DNA from: Deltaproteobacteria bacterium
GTDB lineage: Bacteria; Desulfobacterota; GWC2-55-46; DRQE01
DNA: 32,389 bases
Direction of reading: 5' to 3'
NCBI GenBank assembly: GCA_015492245.1
Contig: WGFM01000030.1
Coordinates: 1-32,389, forward strand
Under the pieces are notes generated by a model. The model did no database searches. It was given only the letters and a program-made list of their open reading frames with translations, and was not told the DNA's origin. Each line of letters opens with the position of its first letter. The stretch's first letter is position 1. The position numbers and the translations under genes were made by a program. Of the stretch, positions 13,493 to 21,004 are shown piece after piece.

Positions 13493-13988
13493 CTCAACCT
13501 GCTATTGTAAAGTTGCAGGACCAGTACAGATTATTCCCCAAAAAGACCTCCTGTGAAGATAATAACCCCTGCAGCAATTAAATGTCAACTTTACAGTATT
13601 GGAAGATTGTTTAGAGATTTAAAGAAGCACCCGTCTATATCTATATCGTCAGGCATCGGTTTTTGCTTAAGTTCCGAGCAGGTGCGTATTTTTCAACCAT
13701 CATCTTACAATAAAACAATCTCTCATCCTTATAAGGGGTTGCATGGTCTATAGAACAGTCTTTTGTAAACTTTTCTGCCCTCCACGCTCCATATTTGTTT
13801 ACAATAATGCTTGACAGGTTGAATTATTTATCTATCATTAATACTATAAGGCTGTTGTTTGTTACAGGGTAGATACAAAAGATGTAGGGCTGATACAGGG
13901 CTCAAGGAGGACGGAAAGAGGAAAAGCAACGGGGTATTGCAGCAGCGTCATGTTGCAGGAAGGCCCATCAAGGAGAGGACGAACTCAG
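13493..13988. other. Divergent regulatory region between cyclase and sigma-54 activator
   Basis: About 500 bp with no convincing gene. It contains an inverted pair TTGTAAAGTTG (13505-13515) and CAACTTTACAG (13586-13596), and a second pair TTGTAAAC (13763-13770) and GTTTACAA (13797-13804). The same TGTAAA/TTTACA half-site recurs upstream of the amyloid operon, which suggests binding sites for the activator itself. A short GCACC/GGTGC stem near 13624-13685 is too weak to name. Confidence 0.5.
13811..13838 (+). promoter_or_regulatory. Sigma-70-type promoter of the sigma-54 activator gene
   Basis: TTGACA (13811-13816), a 16-base spacer and TATCAT (13833-13838). The TTGTAAAC...GTTTACAA inverted repeat ends seven bases upstream of the -35, well placed for autoregulation. 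Confidence 0.6.
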
Positions 13989-15482
13989 ATGATTCGCTTC
14001 TACCCACGCATCAAGGTTCAGCTTTCTGCAGCGATAGGATTTGACAGACAGAAAGCCGAAATCATAGAGTTGAGCCCATCGAGCATATTTCTTAAGCCTT
14101 CGGGTTCTATTCTATCGGTTCACAGAAAGGACATATCTATCAAAGGACCAGTTGTGCTTACCTTCAGCCTGCCAGGATACGGAAGGTTCGAGTACTCCTG
14201 CAACATAGCAAGAAGGGACAAAAATGGTTATGTGCTGATACCAAGCGACATAGACATTACCGGCAGGATGAAGCTCTGGCAGTTCGTGGCAAAAAGACTT
14301 GCAGGGCTCAACACATGTCCATACTGTGGCAGACTCTATGAATCTCTTCCCCTTATATGTTCCAGATGTGGCTGGATGCTCGATTTCACTTCTCCAAACT
14401 ATTTCGGCTATCACGAAAGAACATTGCTCCTTTTGAGGCTGTTCTTCAGATGCAAGGCCCTGCCCACCGACAAGTTGCGCAGGGTCATAAACTTTCTCGA
14501 TACAGAAGTGGAGCGCAGGGCAGGCAGTGAGGCATTCCAGGAGTTTGTTGGCACATGCCCTGAGATGCTCGAGGTATTCTCCATAATACGCAGGGTGGCG
14601 GTTACAGACATACCGGTACTGATAGCCGGCGAAAGTGGCACAGGTAAAGAGCTCACCGCACTCGCCATACACGAGCGCAGCATCAGACGCAGCAAGAATT
14701 TTGTAACCATAAACTGTGCATCCATACCTGAGAACCTTTTAGAAAGCGAGTTGTTCGGCTACCAGAGAGGTGCCTTCACAGGGGCTGTAACGACAAAGAA
14801 AGGCCTGCTCGAGATGGCAGACGGTGGCACACTCTTTCTCGATGAGATAGGAGAACTGCCTGCAAACCTACAGGCAAAGCTGCTCAGATTTCTTGAAGAC
14901 GGTATGGTGAGGAAACTTGGCTCCAACGAGGCAAAGAAGATAGATGTGCGCATCATCTCGGCAACCAACAGGGACCTCGATAAGTCCGTCAGAACAGGCA
15001 CCTTCAGGGCAGACCTCTACTGGAGGCTCAACGGCTTCCCCTTGAGGCTCCCCCCACTTCGTGAAAGGGGAGAGGACAAGATAATCCTTGCCAGATATTT
15101 CCTTAAAAGATTCTCCACAGAACTGAAATCAACCGCAACGGAATTTACAAGGGACGCCCTCATGGCCATAGAGGAATACCACTGGCCCGGCAATGTAAGA
15201 GAACTTATAAACAGAATAAGAAGAGCCTGTGTTATGACACACTCAGAGCTCGTAACAGCACAGGACATGGGGCTCGAGAACATACTGAACAGCTCACTGC
15301 CACCTTACTCACTCAGGAGCGCAACACATACGAACAGAAGGGAACTCATCATAAGGGCACTGACAGAGAACAACTTCATCATCTCAAGGACTGCCCTGAG
15401 CCTCAACATAAGCCGCCAGAGGCTCCATACCCTTATAAAGCAATACTCCATAAACATAGAAGAACTCAAGAGGAAACTGTAA
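13989..15482 (+). CDS. Sigma-54 activator with PilZ-like N-domain, zinc ribbon, AAA+ and Fis-type HTH
   Basis: A 497-residue enhancer-binding protein. Residues 1-105 resemble a PilZ domain. The c-di-GMP-type RxxxR is present as RFYPR (3-7), but the partner (D/N)xSxxG reads ELSPSS, so binding is uncertain. A zinc ribbon follows (C110, C113, C124, C127). The AAA+ domain has Walker A GESGTGKE (214-221), the sigma-54 contact loop GAFTGA (261-266), Walker B LFLDEIGE (282-289) and HWPGNVREL (398-406). A Fis-type helix-turn-helix is at about 464-487. No receiver domain is present, so control is not by a classical kinase. ATG 13989 has AAGGAG 13 bases upstream; an ATG at 13950 has no ribosome site. 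The location just upstream of a sigma-54 promoter names its likely target. Confidence 0.92.
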   Translation: MIRFYPRIKVQLSAAIGFDRQKAEIIELSPSSIFLKPSGSILSVHRKDISIKGPVVLTFSLPGYGRFEYSCNIARRDKNGYVLIPSDIDITGRMKLWQFVAKRLAGLNTCPYCGRLYESLPLICSRCGWMLDFTSPNYFGYHERTLLLLRLFFRCKALPTDKLRRVINFLDTEVERRAGSEAFQEFVGTCPEMLEVFSIIRRVAVTDIPVLIAGESGTGKELTALAIHERSIRRSKNFVTINCASIPENLLESELFGYQRGAFTGAVTTKKGLLEMADGGTLFLDEIGELPANLQAKLLRFLEDGMVRKLGSNEAKKIDVRIISATNRDLDKSVRTGTFRADLYWRLNGFPLRLPPLRERGEDKIILARYFLKRFSTELKSTATEFTRDALMAIEEYHWPGNVRELINRIRRACVMTHSELVTAQDMGLENILNSSLPPYSLRSATHTNRRELIIRALTENNFIISRTALSLNISRQRLHTLIKQYSINIEELKRKL

Positions 15483-15671: not shown

Positions 15672-15687
15672 TGGCACAACACTTGCA
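15672..15687 (+). promoter_or_regulatory. Sigma-54 (-24/-12) promoter of the amyloid operon
   Basis: TGGCACAACACTTGCA matches the consensus TGGCACRNNNNTTGCW at every defined position. It stands directly downstream of the sigma-54 activator gene and two palindromes. The predicted start, about 12 bases after the -12 C, is near 15698, only six bases before the first ATG. Confidence 0.85.
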
Positions 15688-15703
15688 TTGTCATAGGGGC
15701 AGG

Positions 15704-16033
15704 ATGAAGAAAAGGATCAAAATACTCTTACTCCTGATATGGTTTGTATCACTGTTCACCGCAGGGAGCTTGCTGCATGCCAGAGAGAATCTTTCCGTAA
15801 CAGCTGGCACAGGGTGCAAGAACTGCGTCATAGAGACAGGTTTCAACGGCACGGAAACAGGCCTCTATCTGTTGACTACCGAAGAGCTCGATGCCGTAGA
15901 GGCAGCAGGCCTTTATGCCACCCCATACAGCATGGATGCAACAGACCACGGAAGGATAATACTCTGGGACGAGACAGGCGATGAACAGGGTGGCAGGGCC
16001 CCAGTAACAGGAGACCTCTTTATAATGAAGTGA
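15704..16033 (+). CDS. Small secreted CXXC protein, first gene of the amyloid operon
   Basis: A 109-residue protein with a Sec signal peptide (1-27). The mature region has CKNC (38-41) and then LTTEELDAVEAAG (57-69), a motif shared with the two amyloid subunits downstream. Residues 70-109 are acidic and lack repeats. No family is recognised. Its position is like that of FapA in Pseudomonas, but I see no sequence resemblance that I would rely on. ATG 15704 follows GGGGCAGG; the upstream Met at 15671 lies inside the sigma-54 promoter and cannot be the start. It could be a chaperone, assembly factor or substrate of the C39 peptidase; those roles are inference. Confidence 0.72.
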   Translation: MKKRIKILLLLIWFVSLFTAGSLLHARENLSVTAGTGCKNCVIETGFNGTETGLYLLTTEELDAVEAAGLYATPYSMDATDHGRIILWDETGDEQGGRAPVTGDLFIMK

Positions 16034-16201
16034 GATACAGATAGGCCCCTTCTTTACGATGGGGTTTAGATAAAAGGAGGCCCATGAAACACAAGGAGCG
16101 AAAGGTTGAAAGGAGGTGAAGCGTAACCCATACCTTCCCAGGGTAAAGACTAAAGACGAAGCATGTTTCAACAAAACAAATCTGACAAGGAGGTTACACA
16201 G
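16034..16201 (+). other. Leader before the fibre gene, with an 11-codon mini-frame
   Basis: A 168-bp untranslated stretch. It contains CCCC...GGGG (about 16051-16067), which could form a small hairpin. It also has an 11-residue frame, MKHKERKVERR (16084-16119), with AAAGGAGG just upstream; its last codons overlap a second AAAGGAGG. A third strong ribosome site (AAGGAGG) precedes the fibre gene. Such stacked ribosome sites may raise ribosome loading or protect the mRNA. Confidence 0.4.
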
Positions 16202-18055
16202 ATGCGAAGATTCCTAACCATAACACTTGTTGGCCTTATGCTCTCAGCCGGCACGGCCATGGCCGGACCAAAGGCACTTACCGATGCGGAACTCGAGGAT
16301 GTGAATGCACAGGGATTGCAGCTCATAACGAACGACAACAGGGACTTCATGCCGCCCCTGAGCGATCAGAACAACAACCTCGACTCCCTTCAGCTCAACG
16401 GCTCTGCGCAGAAGGACTCAAATGTGGCTGGCATAGTGAACTCTGCAAAGAGTGCTGTCAACGCCTCTGCGAACATACTGAGGGTAGAGACCGTAGATGG
16501 TGATAAGAACGAGGATACCATCATCCAGTCGAACATCAATATTGCCGCAAATCACCAGAATGAGGCAAAAGCAAGAGCTGGTGATAGCCTGGCATTCAAC
16601 CAGAACAAGCAGACCCAGTATGTTGATAACACCCCTGTCTCGCAGATAGACGGGCAGAACAACAACAACAATTCCGTCCAGCTCAACGACAACGCACAGC
16701 AGGACTCCGTGGGTGTGAGCATCATAAACGCCTCCACGAGTGCCGTAAACTTCGCACTCAATGTGGTAAATGCAAGCTCGTTGAGTGATACGGTCTCACA
16801 GAGCAACTACCAGGAGGCCACCAACATGAGTAATAGGGCAGTGGCAACTGGCCTTGCATATGCTGGCAACGAAGAGTTCTACAGCGCAACCCAGACGATA
16901 AACAACCGCTACGATAAAGACAAAGATCCGGGTAGCGTGGAGAACCAGAACAACAACAACAACTCGGTGCAGGCAAACGCCAACGCCCAGGAATACGCAA
17001 GTGTTGGTTCCCTGCTCAACAGTGCACAGTCTGCCGTGAACATCTCGGGAAACCTTGCATCCCTTGGTGATGTCACTGGTTCCTCTCTGACACAGTCCAA
17101 CACCAACATCTCGAGCAACCACAATAACATTGCCATCGCCAACGAGATGGCATCTGCCAGCAACAGGAACAAGCAGACCCAGAATGTAGAGAACGCAGAT
17201 GATCCGAACTTCGGGGGACTGGCAACCATATACAACCAGAACAACAACAACAACTCGGTGCAGGCAAACGGCAACGCACAGAGAGCCGTGCAGGCCATAC
17301 TCCTTGAGAACGCGGCAAGCTCTGCCACCAACGCAGCACTGAACATGCTCTCAACCAATGGACTCTCTGGCTCCACCGCAGTGCAGTCCAACTACCAGAG
17401 TGCGAGCAACTACGAGAATTTGGCCATCTCTGATGGTCTTGCAAGGGCCGGCAATGTGGAGATAAACCGGGCACCCGGGCAGTACATACGCAATGTGCAC
17501 GCAACCATAGAGCAGGACAACAACAACAACTCCGTGCAGCTCAACGGCAACGCACAGGGTGATACAGTGGTTGACAAGCTCGTCAACTCCGCAAACTCGG
17601 CAGTCAATGCCGCCCAGAACCTTATGTCCGCAGGAGATGTGGCAGACTCGACCATATTGCAGTCCAACAGCCAGTATGCAGGCAACCACAACAATACTGC
17701 ATGGAGTACGGATGAAGCAACAGCCGTAAACATGAACAAGCAGACCCAGATAATAGATAACTGCTGGTGCACAGACCTCAGCGAGGGTAATTCACAGGAC
17801 AACAACATGAACTCCGTTCAGCTCAACGACAATGCACAGCAGAACTCCACAGGCACACTCATAGTAAATGCGGCTGACTCAGCTGTCAACGGTGCGCTCA
17901 ATCTTCTCGCAGCCAGTGCGGTAACCAACTCAACCATAGTGCAGTCCAACACGAACATAGCTGTCAACTTCTCCAATACATCTGTAGCCACAAATGTGGC
18001 GACATCAGCCAATATGGAAGGCATGCTACTTCCATATCCAATACCGATACTGTAA
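16202..18055 (+). CDS. Major Fap-like amyloid fibre protein, six N/Q-rich repeats
   Basis: A 617-residue secreted protein. The signal peptide (1-21) ends TAMA, followed by LTDAELEDVNAQG (26-38). Six imperfect repeats of about 92-97 residues start at residues 56, 152, 249, 346, 438 and 532, each opening Q-N/D-N-N-x-N-S-V-Q-x-N-x-x-A-Q and carrying a QSN...N segment about 50 residues later. Asn, Gln, Ser and Ala dominate and charge is low, as in functional amyloids. A CWC motif lies between repeats 5 and 6; Pseudomonas FapC has a terminal CXXC. The linked C39 peptidase and barrel support a FapC-like role rather than curli, because CsgG and curlin repeats are absent. ATG 16202 follows AAGGAGG; an in-frame ATG at 16163 lacks one. 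Confidence 0.82.
   Translation: MRRFLTITLVGLMLSAGTAMAGPKALTDAELEDVNAQGLQLITNDNRDFMPPLSDQNNNLDSLQLNGSAQKDSNVAGIVNSAKSAVNASANILRVETVDGDKNEDTIIQSNINIAANHQNEAKARAGDSLAFNQNKQTQYVDNTPVSQIDGQNNNNNSVQLNDNAQQDSVGVSIINASTSAVNFALNVVNASSLSDTVSQSNYQEATNMSNRAVATGLAYAGNEEFYSATQTINNRYDKDKDPGSVENQNNNNNSVQANANAQEYASVGSLLNSAQSAVNISGNLASLGDVTGSSLTQSNTNISSNHNNIAIANEMASASNRNKQTQNVENADDPNFGGLATIYNQNNNNNSVQANGNAQRAVQAILLENAASSATNAALNMLSTNGLSGSTAVQSNYQSASNYENLAISDGLARAGNVEINRAPGQYIRNVHATIEQDNNNNSVQLNGNAQGDTVVDKLVNSANSAVNAAQNLMSAGDVADSTILQSNSQYAGNHNNTAWSTDEATAVNMNKQTQIIDNCWCTDLSEGNSQDNNMNSVQLNDNAQQNSTGTLIVNAADSAVNGALNLLAASAVTNSTIVQSNTNIAVNFSNTSVATNVATSANMEGMLLPYPIPIL
16367..18055 (+). repeat. Six tandem ~95-residue coding repeats with two-unit periodicity
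   Basis: Repeat starts are 16367, 16655, 16946, 17237, 17513 and 17795. Odd units carry NKQTQ near their end: AACAAGCAGACCCAG occurs exactly at 16604, 17168 and 17735, spaced 564 and 567 bp. Even units 2 and 4 instead carry GLAxAGNxE. The opening of units 3 and 4 is identical over about 30 bases. This points to duplication of two-unit blocks. Confidence 0.85.
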
Positions 18056-18062
18056 GTAATGC

Positions 18063-18100
18063 AAGTGCCCTGCAGGGGCTGTTGCCCCTGCAGGGCACTT
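18063..18100 (+). terminator. Perfect 17-bp hairpin between major and minor subunit genes
   Basis: AAGTGCCCTGCAGGGGC (18063-18079), loop TGTT, then its exact reverse complement (18084-18100). No T tract follows, so it is more likely an mRNA-stabilising or partial-termination element that keeps the fibre message abundant relative to the downstream genes. Confidence 0.6.
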
Positions 18101-18145
18101 CAAAGTGTATAAACATTGATCTAAAAGCATGTAAGGAGGAATGGA

Positions 18146-18628
18146 ATGAAAAGGCTCGCAGCGACATTCGTTGTATTGATAACTGTTCTTATGCTTCCGG
18201 CCATCTCTCGAGCTGAAAACCACCAGCTGACAGATGAATACATGGATACAATCCATGCTCGTGGTCTCATGGTATTTATTGACTTCAACATGTTCCTTGC
18301 AGACTTCGGCATGACCAGTAGCCCCACAATCACAGGTGATGACATGCTCGGCCTGTCCGACATACCAGACTCTCTCAACAACATACACATAGGCGCCCAG
18401 GAGGTTGGTGATAACAACACTGGCAATGTGCTGCAGAGTTCTGTTCAGCTCAACGGCAACGCACAGCAGAACCTCAACTCCTTCGTGAACATAAACGCAG
18501 CCTCGAGTGTCGTCCCCTTCGGCATAAACATAACCGTCATCCAGGGAGACAACTATGGCACAGTAAGCCAGCGCAACCTTTCTCTGGGCATGTTCCGCAG
18601 CACCCTGTTCATGCTGGGCGGAATATAA
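18146..18628 (+). CDS. Minor Fap-like subunit (candidate nucleator)
   Basis: A 160-residue secreted protein with a signal peptide ending SRAE. LTDEYMDTIHARG (28-40) repeats the motif of the fibre protein. A single repeat-like segment follows: GNVLQSSVQLNGNAQQ, then INAASSVVPFGIN and QGDNYGTVSQRN. This is the fibre repeat pattern in one copy, as expected for a nucleating or capping minor subunit such as FapB. GGAGG lies six bases before the ATG. It follows the fibre gene after the strong hairpin, so it would be made at lower level. Confidence 0.75.
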   Translation: MKRLAATFVVLITVLMLPAISRAENHQLTDEYMDTIHARGLMVFIDFNMFLADFGMTSSPTITGDDMLGLSDIPDSLNNIHIGAQEVGDNNTGNVLQSSVQLNGNAQQNLNSFVNINAASSVVPFGINITVIQGDNYGTVSQRNLSLGMFRSTLFMLGGI

Positions 18629-18642
18629 AACAAGGGAAGCAT

Positions 18643-19383
18643 ATGAGAGCCCTGTCTATAGAGATAACAAGGAGGATACACCCTGTCTGGATTGTCCTGG
18701 TTGTGGTAGTGGTAGTGGGTTTTTCCTTCCTGTCCGGGGCAGCCGCAGCCCCGTTCAGTGTTGGTATGGGTGGGCTGACACTCCACATAGATGTAAAGAG
18801 CTTACGGGAGATACAGACCGACGGCATAGTGATACAGAAGCATGATTACAGCTGTGGCTCCGCAGCCATGGCAACACTCATGGGTTACCTCGGTGAGGAG
18901 GTCAAAGAAGAAGAGGTGATCGAGAGCATACTCAGACGAGGCAACCTGGAGAAGATCGCCAGGAGAGGGGGATTCTCTCTGCTTGACCTGAAGCGATACG
19001 CCGAATCACTGGGTTACAACGCAGAGGGATACAGGGCGGATACCCTCTCGGATCTTCTTCGGCTGAGCCTTGCATCAGGGGAAAGCATGTTCCCAGTGCT
19101 CGTGCCAATAGTTATAAACAACTACAAGCACTTTGTGATACTGCGGGGTATAAGAGACGGCAGGGTGTTCCTTGCCGATCCATCGAGGGGAAACACGACC
19201 ATGCCCGTGTACGAGTTTGAAAAATACTGGTTCAAGAACATATTCCTCATAGTTAGTAGAAGCGGGGTAGAACTGGAGGAGAACCTTAAGGAGATGGAGG
19301 CGTCTTTTCTTGAAAACTACAACCCTTCCACCCTCAAGTCCCTGTCCGTCCCGTTCATATCGCGGGACCCTGGAAGGTTTTAA
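18643..19383 (+). CDS. FapD-like C39-family cysteine peptidase
   Basis: A 246-residue protein. A hydrophobic segment (14-36) is a signal peptide or anchor placing the enzyme in the periplasm. The C39 catalytic pattern is complete: Q65 (oxyanion), C71 in HDYSCGSAA, H163 in NNYKHFVIL and D179 in LADPSRG. No ABC transporter domains are attached, unlike bacteriocin exporters. FapD of Pseudomonas is the same kind of free C39 protein and is required for Fap fibre production. The gene starts 14 bp after the minor subunit. The last 40 residues extend beyond the peptidase fold. Confidence 0.85.
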   Translation: MRALSIEITRRIHPVWIVLVVVVVVGFSFLSGAAAAPFSVGMGGLTLHIDVKSLREIQTDGIVIQKHDYSCGSAAMATLMGYLGEEVKEEEVIESILRRGNLEKIARRGGFSLLDLKRYAESLGYNAEGYRADTLSDLLRLSLASGESMFPVLVPIVINNYKHFVILRGIRDGRVFLADPSRGNTTMPVYEFEKYWFKNIFLIVSRSGVELEENLKEMEASFLENYNPSTLKSLSVPFISRDPGRF

Positions 19384-19435: not shown

Positions 19436-20482
19436 ATGAAAAAGGCGATACTTTCCATGGCCATTTTTGTGTTCATAACCATTAATACCATATCCTTCTC
19501 ACAGGGGGCAACGGAAGAGGAAATAACAAAGGTAAAGGAATCCCTGAAAAGAGAGCCGCCACAGAGGGTAATGCCATCTGACATACGCCAGGGTGGGTTG
19601 CTGCTCAAGAAGGGCCAGGTGGAACTCGACCTTACCTTCACATACGCACACTTTTCAGAAAACCAGATATTCATTGAAGGCTTTGCCCTTCTGCCTGTGC
19701 TTGTCATAGGGGAGATAACCGTGGAAAAGATAAAGAGGGACATATTCATCGGCTCCGTAACGGGCAAGGTTGGTATAACAGATCGGGTGCAGTTCGAGAT
19801 TACTGTGCCCTATCGCTATCAGTATGAGCGATACTTTCGTCCCAATGTCTCCATAGCCAACCAGGAAGAGGTCAACGACTACGGAGGCATGGGAGATGTC
19901 TACGGAAGCCTTCTCTACCACGCCATACAGGAGACAGCATCGAGACCCCATGTCGTGGTAGGGCTCACCTACAAATCCATCTCCGGTGAGAGCATATTCG
20001 ACATAAACCCACAAAACGGAGAGGTCCCGCTCGGCACGGGTTTTCACTCTCTAAAGGGTATAATATCGATGATAAAGACGGCTGACCCCGCTGTGGTATT
20101 CCTCAACCTCGGCTATACCTACAACTTCTCGAGAAAGGGTGATGTCTACATAGCAAGCCAGGATGCCGTAACAAAGGAGATAGTCTATACAAAAACACGC
20201 AGCAAGTTTCGGCCTGGTGATACCATCGAGCTCGGTTTCGGTGTTGCCTATGCCCTGAGTTACAAGTTCGCCCTCAACACCCAGTATCAGCACAGCATAA
20301 CACTAAAGACGGCAAAGGATGACGACGAAATAGAAGGCACCTTCCTCAATGTGGGCTACACAAAACTCGGGGGTGTGTGGGCATGGAGTGAGATGACATC
20401 CATAGAGCTCTCCACCACATTCGGTGTTACAGCCGATGCCCCGGATGTGGTGGTGGAATCGAGGGTATCATACAGGTTCTAA
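19436..20482 (+). CDS. Outer-membrane beta-barrel, candidate FapF-like amyloid exporter
   Basis: A 348-residue protein with a signal peptide (1-24). A short charged periplasmic N-region follows (TEEEITKVKESLKREPPQR), then amphipathic strands to the end (…VVVESRVSYRF), closing with the terminal Phe of BAM substrates. FapF in Pseudomonas is a trimeric barrel whose helical N-region plugs the pore and exports FapB, FapC and FapE. This protein is shorter and has only a brief helical segment, so the assignment rests on topology and position. GGAGG is at a good distance from ATG 19436. Confidence 0.75.
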   Translation: MKKAILSMAIFVFITINTISFSQGATEEEITKVKESLKREPPQRVMPSDIRQGGLLLKKGQVELDLTFTYAHFSENQIFIEGFALLPVLVIGEITVEKIKRDIFIGSVTGKVGITDRVQFEITVPYRYQYERYFRPNVSIANQEEVNDYGGMGDVYGSLLYHAIQETASRPHVVVGLTYKSISGESIFDINPQNGEVPLGTGFHSLKGIISMIKTADPAVVFLNLGYTYNFSRKGDVYIASQDAVTKEIVYTKTRSKFRPGDTIELGFGVAYALSYKFALNTQYQHSITLKTAKDDDEIEGTFLNVGYTKLGGVWAWSEMTSIELSTTFGVTADAPDVVVESRVSYRF

Positions 20483-20512: not shown

Positions 20513-21004
20513 TTGAGACTCTTGACTTCCATATTGATGATGCTTATCATGGTGGCCTATGTGAACGCAGAGGATGTTGCCACGAGGCTCAAGAACAAAG
20601 GGCTCAAGGAAGGTATCCTTGCAAATCTTAACGGTGCGTGCCTCAAGGCTGTGGACTTCGACTTCAAGGAAGACCACACCTTCTGGCAGAGCGTGTGGAA
20701 CACAGACGGTAGGTTCCTTGTGCTCGACTTCCTGCAGGGAACAAAACACTACACCCTTGTGGTGAGGCCTACCGGAAAGAATGGATGCCTAACTTCACGC
20801 ACCATTGTGGCCTACTGGACAAACCCATGTCAGAACCTGAAGGATAGATACAGAGACAGCTTCCCCAGGGACACCATAAAGATAAGAGAAACCCAGAGTG
20901 TATTCGTGTGGATAACCAACGACAGGGGTACAGACATATACCTCTACAAAACACCTGGAGGCTGTGTGGAGATATTCAGAGAAATCTATACCCTCAAGGA
21001 CTGA
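20513..21004 (+). CDS. Small secreted four-cysteine protein, last gene of the amyloid operon
   Basis: A 163-residue protein beginning at TTG 20513, eight bases after AAAGGAGG. A signal peptide (1-19) ends VNAE. The mature part is beta-rich with four Cys: NGACLK (C43), C86, C100 and C148. These could form two disulfides. It lacks the repeats and the LT..EL motif. Family not recognised; by position it might be an assembly factor or surface partner like FapE, but there is no sequence support for that. It ends immediately before an A-run and the thiC remnant. Confidence 0.75.
   Translation: MRLLTSILMMLIMVAYVNAEDVATRLKNKGLKEGILANLNGACLKAVDFDFKEDHTFWQSVWNTDGRFLVLDFLQGTKHYTLVVRPTGKNGCLTSRTIVAYWTNPCQNLKDRYRDSFPRDTIKIRETQSVFVWITNDRGTDIYLYKTPGGCVEIFREIYTLKD

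Follow-up and report, generated by a model that had tools for sequence, protein, structure and literature searches.

The first three products of an amyloid operon carry, each behind a Sec-type signal sequence, a motif that resembles the double-glycine leader of C39 peptidase substrates. We consider it probable that this motif is a propeptide by which the operon's own periplasmic C39 peptidase recognizes its substrates, such that the proteins would be exported by Sec and then cut by the C39 enzyme. The operon lies in a 32.4 kb window, by which we mean the whole stretch of 32,389 nucleotides of deltaproteobacterial DNA analyzed here, and the proposal is built on the presence, register, and modularity of the motif, its linkage to C39 genes, the intact catalytic residues of the enzyme, and a C39 fold predicted by modeling.

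Organization of a Fap/Fil-type amyloid operon

The activator gene, the promoter match, and the genes from P1 to the FapF-like barrel all lie on the forward strand. The cluster is preceded by a gene for a sigma-54-dependent activator with an AAA+ domain (13950–15482; Pfam Sigma54_activat, E 8.4e-69), which from its position is the probable regulator of the amyloid operon, and by a candidate sigma-54 (−24/−12) promoter, TGGCAC-N5-TTGC, for which the 32.4 kb window contains a single exact match (15672–15686), 17 nt 5′ of the P1 start codon. Given the adjacent activator, this match is probably a genuine promoter and the operon sigma-54 controlled. The match sits very near the P1 start (15672–15704), which predicts a 5′ untranslated region of about 6 nt.

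The first gene (15704–16033) encodes P1, a 109-residue secreted protein of the IILWDE family, recognized by its signal sequence and by relatives in loci L048, L052, L055, L057, L058, L062, L063, and L065. It is followed by P2 (16202–18055), a 617-residue Asn/Gln-rich protein built from repeats of about 95 residues (six DNA repeat copies at 276–291 nt spacing) and containing 18.8% asparagine behind the motif; P2 is likely the major amyloid subunit. P3 (18146–18628) is a 160-residue secreted protein with one copy of the P2 amyloid repeat core (repeat D3, common to both), it sorts into one cluster with P2 and relatives from locus L038 when the bodies are clustered, and it is likely a minor, FapB-like subunit. 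The initial annotation had placed a C39 peptidase next to these genes, and it is indeed the fourth gene of the operon (18643–19383; Pfam Peptidase_C39, PF03412, E 4.5e-20), just beyond the interval 15704–18628 to which that annotation referred. Next comes a FapF-like outer-membrane barrel (19436–20482; NCBIfam FapF, E 2.8e-38, under the curated cut-off), likely the export pore. The cluster ends, 3′ of the FapF-like gene, with a 163-residue secreted protein (20513–21004), which matches no known family and lacks a clear leader motif, its best 12-mer scoring about 4–9 bits.

The window cluster is thus a Fap/Fil-type amyloid operon: the C39 gene adjoins both a FapF-like barrel and repeat-bearing secreted subunits. 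The full fapABCDEF set is not present, as family matches to FapA, FapB, FapC, and FapE are absent among the window products, and P1–P3 are analogues of Fap subunits by position and repeats only.

Leader motifs behind the signal sequences of P1, P2, and P3

The three motif strings reported in the first three operon products are all found as written: LTTEELDAVEAAG in P1 (residues 57–69; 15872–15910), LTDAELEDVNAQG in P2 (residues 26–38; 16277–16315), and LTDEYMDTIHARG in P3 (residues 28–40; 18227–18265), scoring 12.5, 20.8, and 16.9 bits, respectively, with a weight matrix trained without the window sequence. A Sec-type signal sequence precedes each of them, and the distance in P2 and P3 from the likely signal-peptidase site to the body, about 16–20 residues, is hardly longer than the motif itself. 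The L038 relative of P3 has LSDEYLDTVHAQG at the same place. The alignment to the bacteriocin leader proposed in the initial annotation holds at −12, −11, −8, −7, and −4, and its A-x-G ending resolves into alanine at −2, A, Q, or R at −1, and glycine at +1, outside the pair that corresponds to GG. The hydrophobic residues L−12, L−7, and V/I−4 are present in all three motifs, with methionine replacing leucine at −7 in P3.

The three motifs end in AA, AQ, and AR at −2/−1, and they show neither a canonical GG, GA, or GS ending nor the canonical arrangement of a non-Sec N-terminal leader paired with an ABC-transporter-fused C39 domain. Although the motif would work like a double-glycine leader, we do not class it as a canonical one, because it differs in the −1 residue, in its position behind a Sec signal, and in being paired with a free enzyme. 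The IILWDE-family relatives of P1, however, carry GG, GQ, or GR at the very position of the AA in P1, and at the level of the alignment they form a direct bridge from the window variant to the classical double-glycine end.

A free C39 peptidase of the FapD/FilB type

The window C39 protein has an N-terminal signal or anchor, is predicted to be periplasmic, and lacks a transporter domain. Its best NCBIfam match is FilB (134.6 bits against a cut-off of 475), while its score in the FapD equivalog test (NF058616) is 113.5 bits against a curated cut-off of 330; as judged from these profiles, it is a FapD/FilB relative, FapD-like rather than a FapD equivalog. Membership in peptidase family C39 is indicated by both the profile match and the Gln/Cys/His/Asp catalytic residues: Gln65, Cys71, His163, and Asp179 do not vary among the 32 aligned sequences and align with Q21, C27, H101, and D117 of LahT. 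The nearest solved structure by profile is that of the LahT peptidase crystallized with its leader (6mpz, E 1e-20). An AlphaFold2 model of the window enzyme (pLDDT 82) superposes on the ComA peptidase with a Z score of 19.6 (rmsd 1.8 over 133 residues) and on the LahT–leader complex with a Z score of 18.2, so that the enzyme is predicted to adopt the papain-like fold of C39 peptidases.

In LahT, V−4, L−7, and L−12 occupy a hydrophobic groove and matter for recognition, E−8 and E−5 are dispensable, a 13-residue leader is enough, and the small residues at the double-glycine site are explained by a tight pocket (PMC6363468). Positions −12, −7, −4, and −2 of the motif match these determinants. The window motifs fit the groove positions, although the −1 residue of P2 and P3 is not small, whereas the C39 enzymes studied so far accept G, A, or S at −1 because the pocket is narrow. 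When we compared the −1 residue with the residues of the FapD proteins, many alignment columns were associated with it but followed clade, which left no single pocket residue to point to.

Linkage of the motif to C39 genes

C39 relatives were gathered from the phylum and from GTDB contigs, the latter contributing 80 loci with known organism names that range from Desulfobacteraceae to Pseudomonas, Massilia, and Marinobacter. A first-pass regular expression found its matches mainly in same-strand secreted genes adjoining the C39 gene. In a cross-group design, 60 Deltaproteobacteria-type loci served to train a weight matrix that was then tested on the 49 others, and the reverse was also run. The threshold was at least 9 bits, and genes were counted as near up to 4 kb from the C39 gene and as far beyond 5 kb. 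The motif was present in 38/126 signal-bearing genes near C39, in 2/88 far genes, and in 1/630 shuffled segments; with the training and test sets exchanged, the counts were 49/185, 5/131, and 6/925, respectively (Fisher p ~2e-8 for each cross-group test, with p-values that ignore the kinship of the loci). These fractions are approximate, as the signal-sequence rule is crude and the gene set computed, and most of the far matches seem to be genuine additional members of the same clusters. Random stretches totaling 1.13 Mb from five genomes, including a 327 kb sample from the window’s own genome, yielded 0/435 signal-bearing genes at 9 bits, and three weak matches when all open frames were counted instead of the gene set. 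With a matrix built on all loci, motifs of at least 12 bits occur in 93 of 109 loci (195 open reading frames), leaving 16 loci without one. The co-occurrence of the motif with free C39 peptidases across genomes, which the initial annotation had proposed as a check, is thus seen as strong linkage over the 109 loci. A search of viral contigs returned no relatives.

The consensus reads L/M/I at −12, S/T at −11, D at −10, E/D at −8, L/M at −7, V/I/L at −4, G/A at −2, and Q/G/R/E at −1, with any residue at the remaining positions; the −2/−1 pairs are chiefly GQ, AQ, GG, and AE in the Deltaproteobacteria-type set and chiefly GR, GG, AG, and SG in the remaining loci. The bodies that follow the motif fall into about 31 unrelated sequence clusters, among them DUF6160/FilA proteins, FapE, FapA, the window amyloid pair, and small VTAG proteins, which rules out that the motif is one inherited domain. 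Both this diversity and the cross-group design argue against inheritance alone as the source of the linkage. The predicted propeptide has a median length of 22 residues, most commonly 15–19, close to the 13-residue minimum of LahT.

Two further arrangements were noted among the collected loci. Four beta-/gammaproteobacterial loci (L107, L124, L133, and L142) have, adjoining the C39 gene, a series of genes for small secreted proteins whose leaders read L[ST]xxxMDxVTAG. A second, lipoprotein-like C39 protein of the PA2778 type (L002:1456–2418 on contig C12 of genome G000; also in L073, L075, and L076) pairs with a small membrane protein bearing a conserved LSDEELHSFA..IESLYPGGD-like stretch; these PA2778/PA2779 pairs were not counted, as the GG of the small partner is out of register with −12.

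Co-occurrence with DUF6160 and the Pseudomonas Fap proteins

Members of the Pfam family DUF6160 (PF19657) bear the motif and allow the linkage to be followed genome-wide. In the phylum, DUF6160 occurs in 21 of 395 genomes, and a FapD-type C39 is found in 17 of these 21 versus 36 of all 395; in Gammaproteobacteria, DUF6160 occurs in 4 of 229 genomes, and all four have a FapD-type C39, versus 28 of 229 overall. The initial annotation had named frequent occurrence of the motif where a C39 peptidase is lacking as an argument against its reading, and such genomes are a minority, 4 of the 25 with DUF6160: their motifs are intact, no FapD-type C39 was detected in the assembly, and assembly gaps are possible, with some of the DUF6160 genes located at contig ends. 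In one genome lacking a FapD-type C39 (G373, contig C5, 86458–86679; L225), the DUF6160 match is broken by one TGA. Genome G546 (L248–L254) presents 15 DUF6160 matches scattered over many contigs, with leader-type motifs in those checked, and a single FapD-type gene, which suggests that the peptidase acts in trans, one enzyme for many substrates.

In Pseudomonas, FapD acts in the periplasm as an active C39 protease with an unclear target, its active-site cysteine is required for FapC secretion (the C38A substitution abolishes it), and the Fap proteins were reported to lack canonical C39 sequences (Rouse et al. 2017; PMC5557850); a 2018 review still lists the FapD substrate as undetermined (PMC6173800). 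We find LKDQELANLRGR at residues 28–39 of FapE and LSDGDFASVASG at about residue 73 of FapA in the fetched Pseudomonas loci. FapE is the only Fap protein without peptides from its first ~70 residues, i.e., N-terminally processed (PMC5557850), and its motif fits this processing, though the missing peptides reach past the predicted site. The FapA motif does not fit, as FapA peptides were detected over the whole sequence and the protein reported as unprocessed (PMC5557850). In FapB and FapC of these loci we detected no motif, so removal of such a leader is no general feature of amyloid subunits.

Proposed route and alternative readings

We therefore propose a route in which the subunits would cross the inner membrane by Sec, as their signal sequences imply, and signal peptidase would leave a propeptide of ~16–40 residues. 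FapD could then grip a short amphipathic helix (L−12, L/M−7, V/I−4) in its hydrophobic groove and would cut after position −1, with A or G at −2, the scissile bond being predicted from the register of the motif. Removal of the leader may free the subunits to pass FapF and assemble. The leader is a portable module that stands before amyloids, FapE, FapA, DUF6160/FilA, and small VTAG proteins beside FapD-type peptidases. These comparisons support the earlier suggestion of a periplasmic C39 enzyme that recognizes a leader of double-glycine type on substrates exported by Sec, namely the 109-locus linkage, the GG-bearing bridging relatives, and the co-occurrence of DUF6160 with FapD-type C39, and the suggestion fits both the active periplasmic FapD and the N-terminal loss of FapE (PMC5557850), with cleavage as the step expected from them. 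Counting against this reading are the Q, R, A, or E at −1 in the window and many relatives, the four motif-bearing DUF6160 genomes with no detected FapD-type C39, the motif in the reportedly unprocessed FapA, the lack of a detected motif in Pseudomonas FapB and FapC, and the 16 of 109 loci with none at 12 bits or more.

The motif could alternatively be an export or docking signal recognized by FapF, through either its pore or its periplasmic coiled coil, with the C39 enzyme acting elsewhere, for example on FapF. Consistent with this, a FapF-like barrel adjoins the C39 gene in most loci and FapF has been raised as a possible FapD target (PMC5557850). In Syntrophaceae-type loci, however, three to six motif proteins cluster with the C39 gene while FapF is encoded elsewhere in the genome, and this retention of the motif genes beside C39 suggests that the tag is read by C39 rather than by FapF. 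The conserved positions are moreover those bound by C39 enzymes, and Pseudomonas FapB and FapC traverse FapF without the motif, all of which makes docking to FapF unlikely.

A second, very unlikely reading is that the C39 protein is a chaperone or tether that binds the leader without cutting it, in the manner of HlyB's inactive C39-like domain. Such noncutting domains exist and that of HlyB is among the structural matches of the window enzyme, but the four catalytic residues (Gln, Cys, His, and Asp) are conserved without exception in the 32 sequences aligned, and this, together with the loss of secretion in the Pseudomonas FapD C38A variant (PMC5557850), speaks for an active protease. A third reading is that the motif belongs to the mature protein, where it would cap the N-terminus or serve in assembly, was inherited along with the gene clusters, and is unrelated to proteolysis. 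The four genomes that keep the motif with no detected FapD-type C39, and the frequent occurrence of a −1 residue that is not small, are compatible with it, but the occurrence of the motif before ~31 separate body clusters and its absence from random secreted proteins render that interpretation highly improbable. Finally, chance resemblance in the acidic N-termini of secreted proteins, which has nothing but the short length of the motif in its favor, is refuted by the random-genome, far-gene, and shuffle controls (0/435 and 1/630 against 38/126 near C39) and has a negligible probability.

Returning to a propeptide recognized by the C39 enzyme, we are further inclined, on balance, to see in it a widespread Gram-negative two-step tag: a Sec signal plus a C39 leader whose end may be GG, GQ, GR, AQ, AG, or similar, placed before many unrelated extracellular proteins and read by a free periplasmic C39 peptidase, sometimes one for many scattered substrates. 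FapD is a cysteine protease needed for amyloid secretion for which the literature gives no determined substrate (PMC5557850, PMC6173800), and a defined leader would provide exact predicted cleavage sites in FapE, the window amyloids, the uncharacterized DUF6160 proteins, FilA, and other secreted proteins. A precise and testable answer to the question of FapD’s target is probably the main gain.

Comparison with known systems

Like the window operon, Pseudomonas fapABCDEF combines a free periplasmic C39 peptidase, FapD, with amyloid subunits and FapF, and the leader motif is present there in FapE and FapA; the difference is that in the window the repeat subunits P2 and P3 bear the leader, whereas none was detected in FapB and FapC of Pseudomonas. 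The putative FilA/FilB pilus of Acinetobacter (NF050077, NF050078) resembles the window in its C39 enzyme, as FilB is the NCBIfam family that the window peptidase matches best, though far below the cut-off, and DUF6160/FilA-type proteins (DUF6160, PF19657) likewise have a signal followed by LSD..L..VTGQ adjoining the C39 gene, but their bodies are unlike those of the window substrates and the window genome has no DUF6160 gene. The Neisseria nap island also combines a C39 peptidase (NapP) and a FapF-like pore (NapF) with GG-bearing products, which there, however, are bacteriocin-like autolysis peptides (PMC11798529); no matching leader was found behind a signal sequence in the nap stretch that we fetched. 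With the C39 domains of PCAT/AMS systems (LahT, PCAT1, ComA), the window shares the −12, −7, and −4 positions, the small −2 residue, the predicted fold, and the catalytic residues (PMC6363468). It differs from them in a C39 enzyme unfused to an ABC transporter, in a substrate that would leave by Sec first, and in a −1 residue that may be A, Q, R, or E, and if our reading is correct, double-glycine-type processing would not be confined to ABC transporters.
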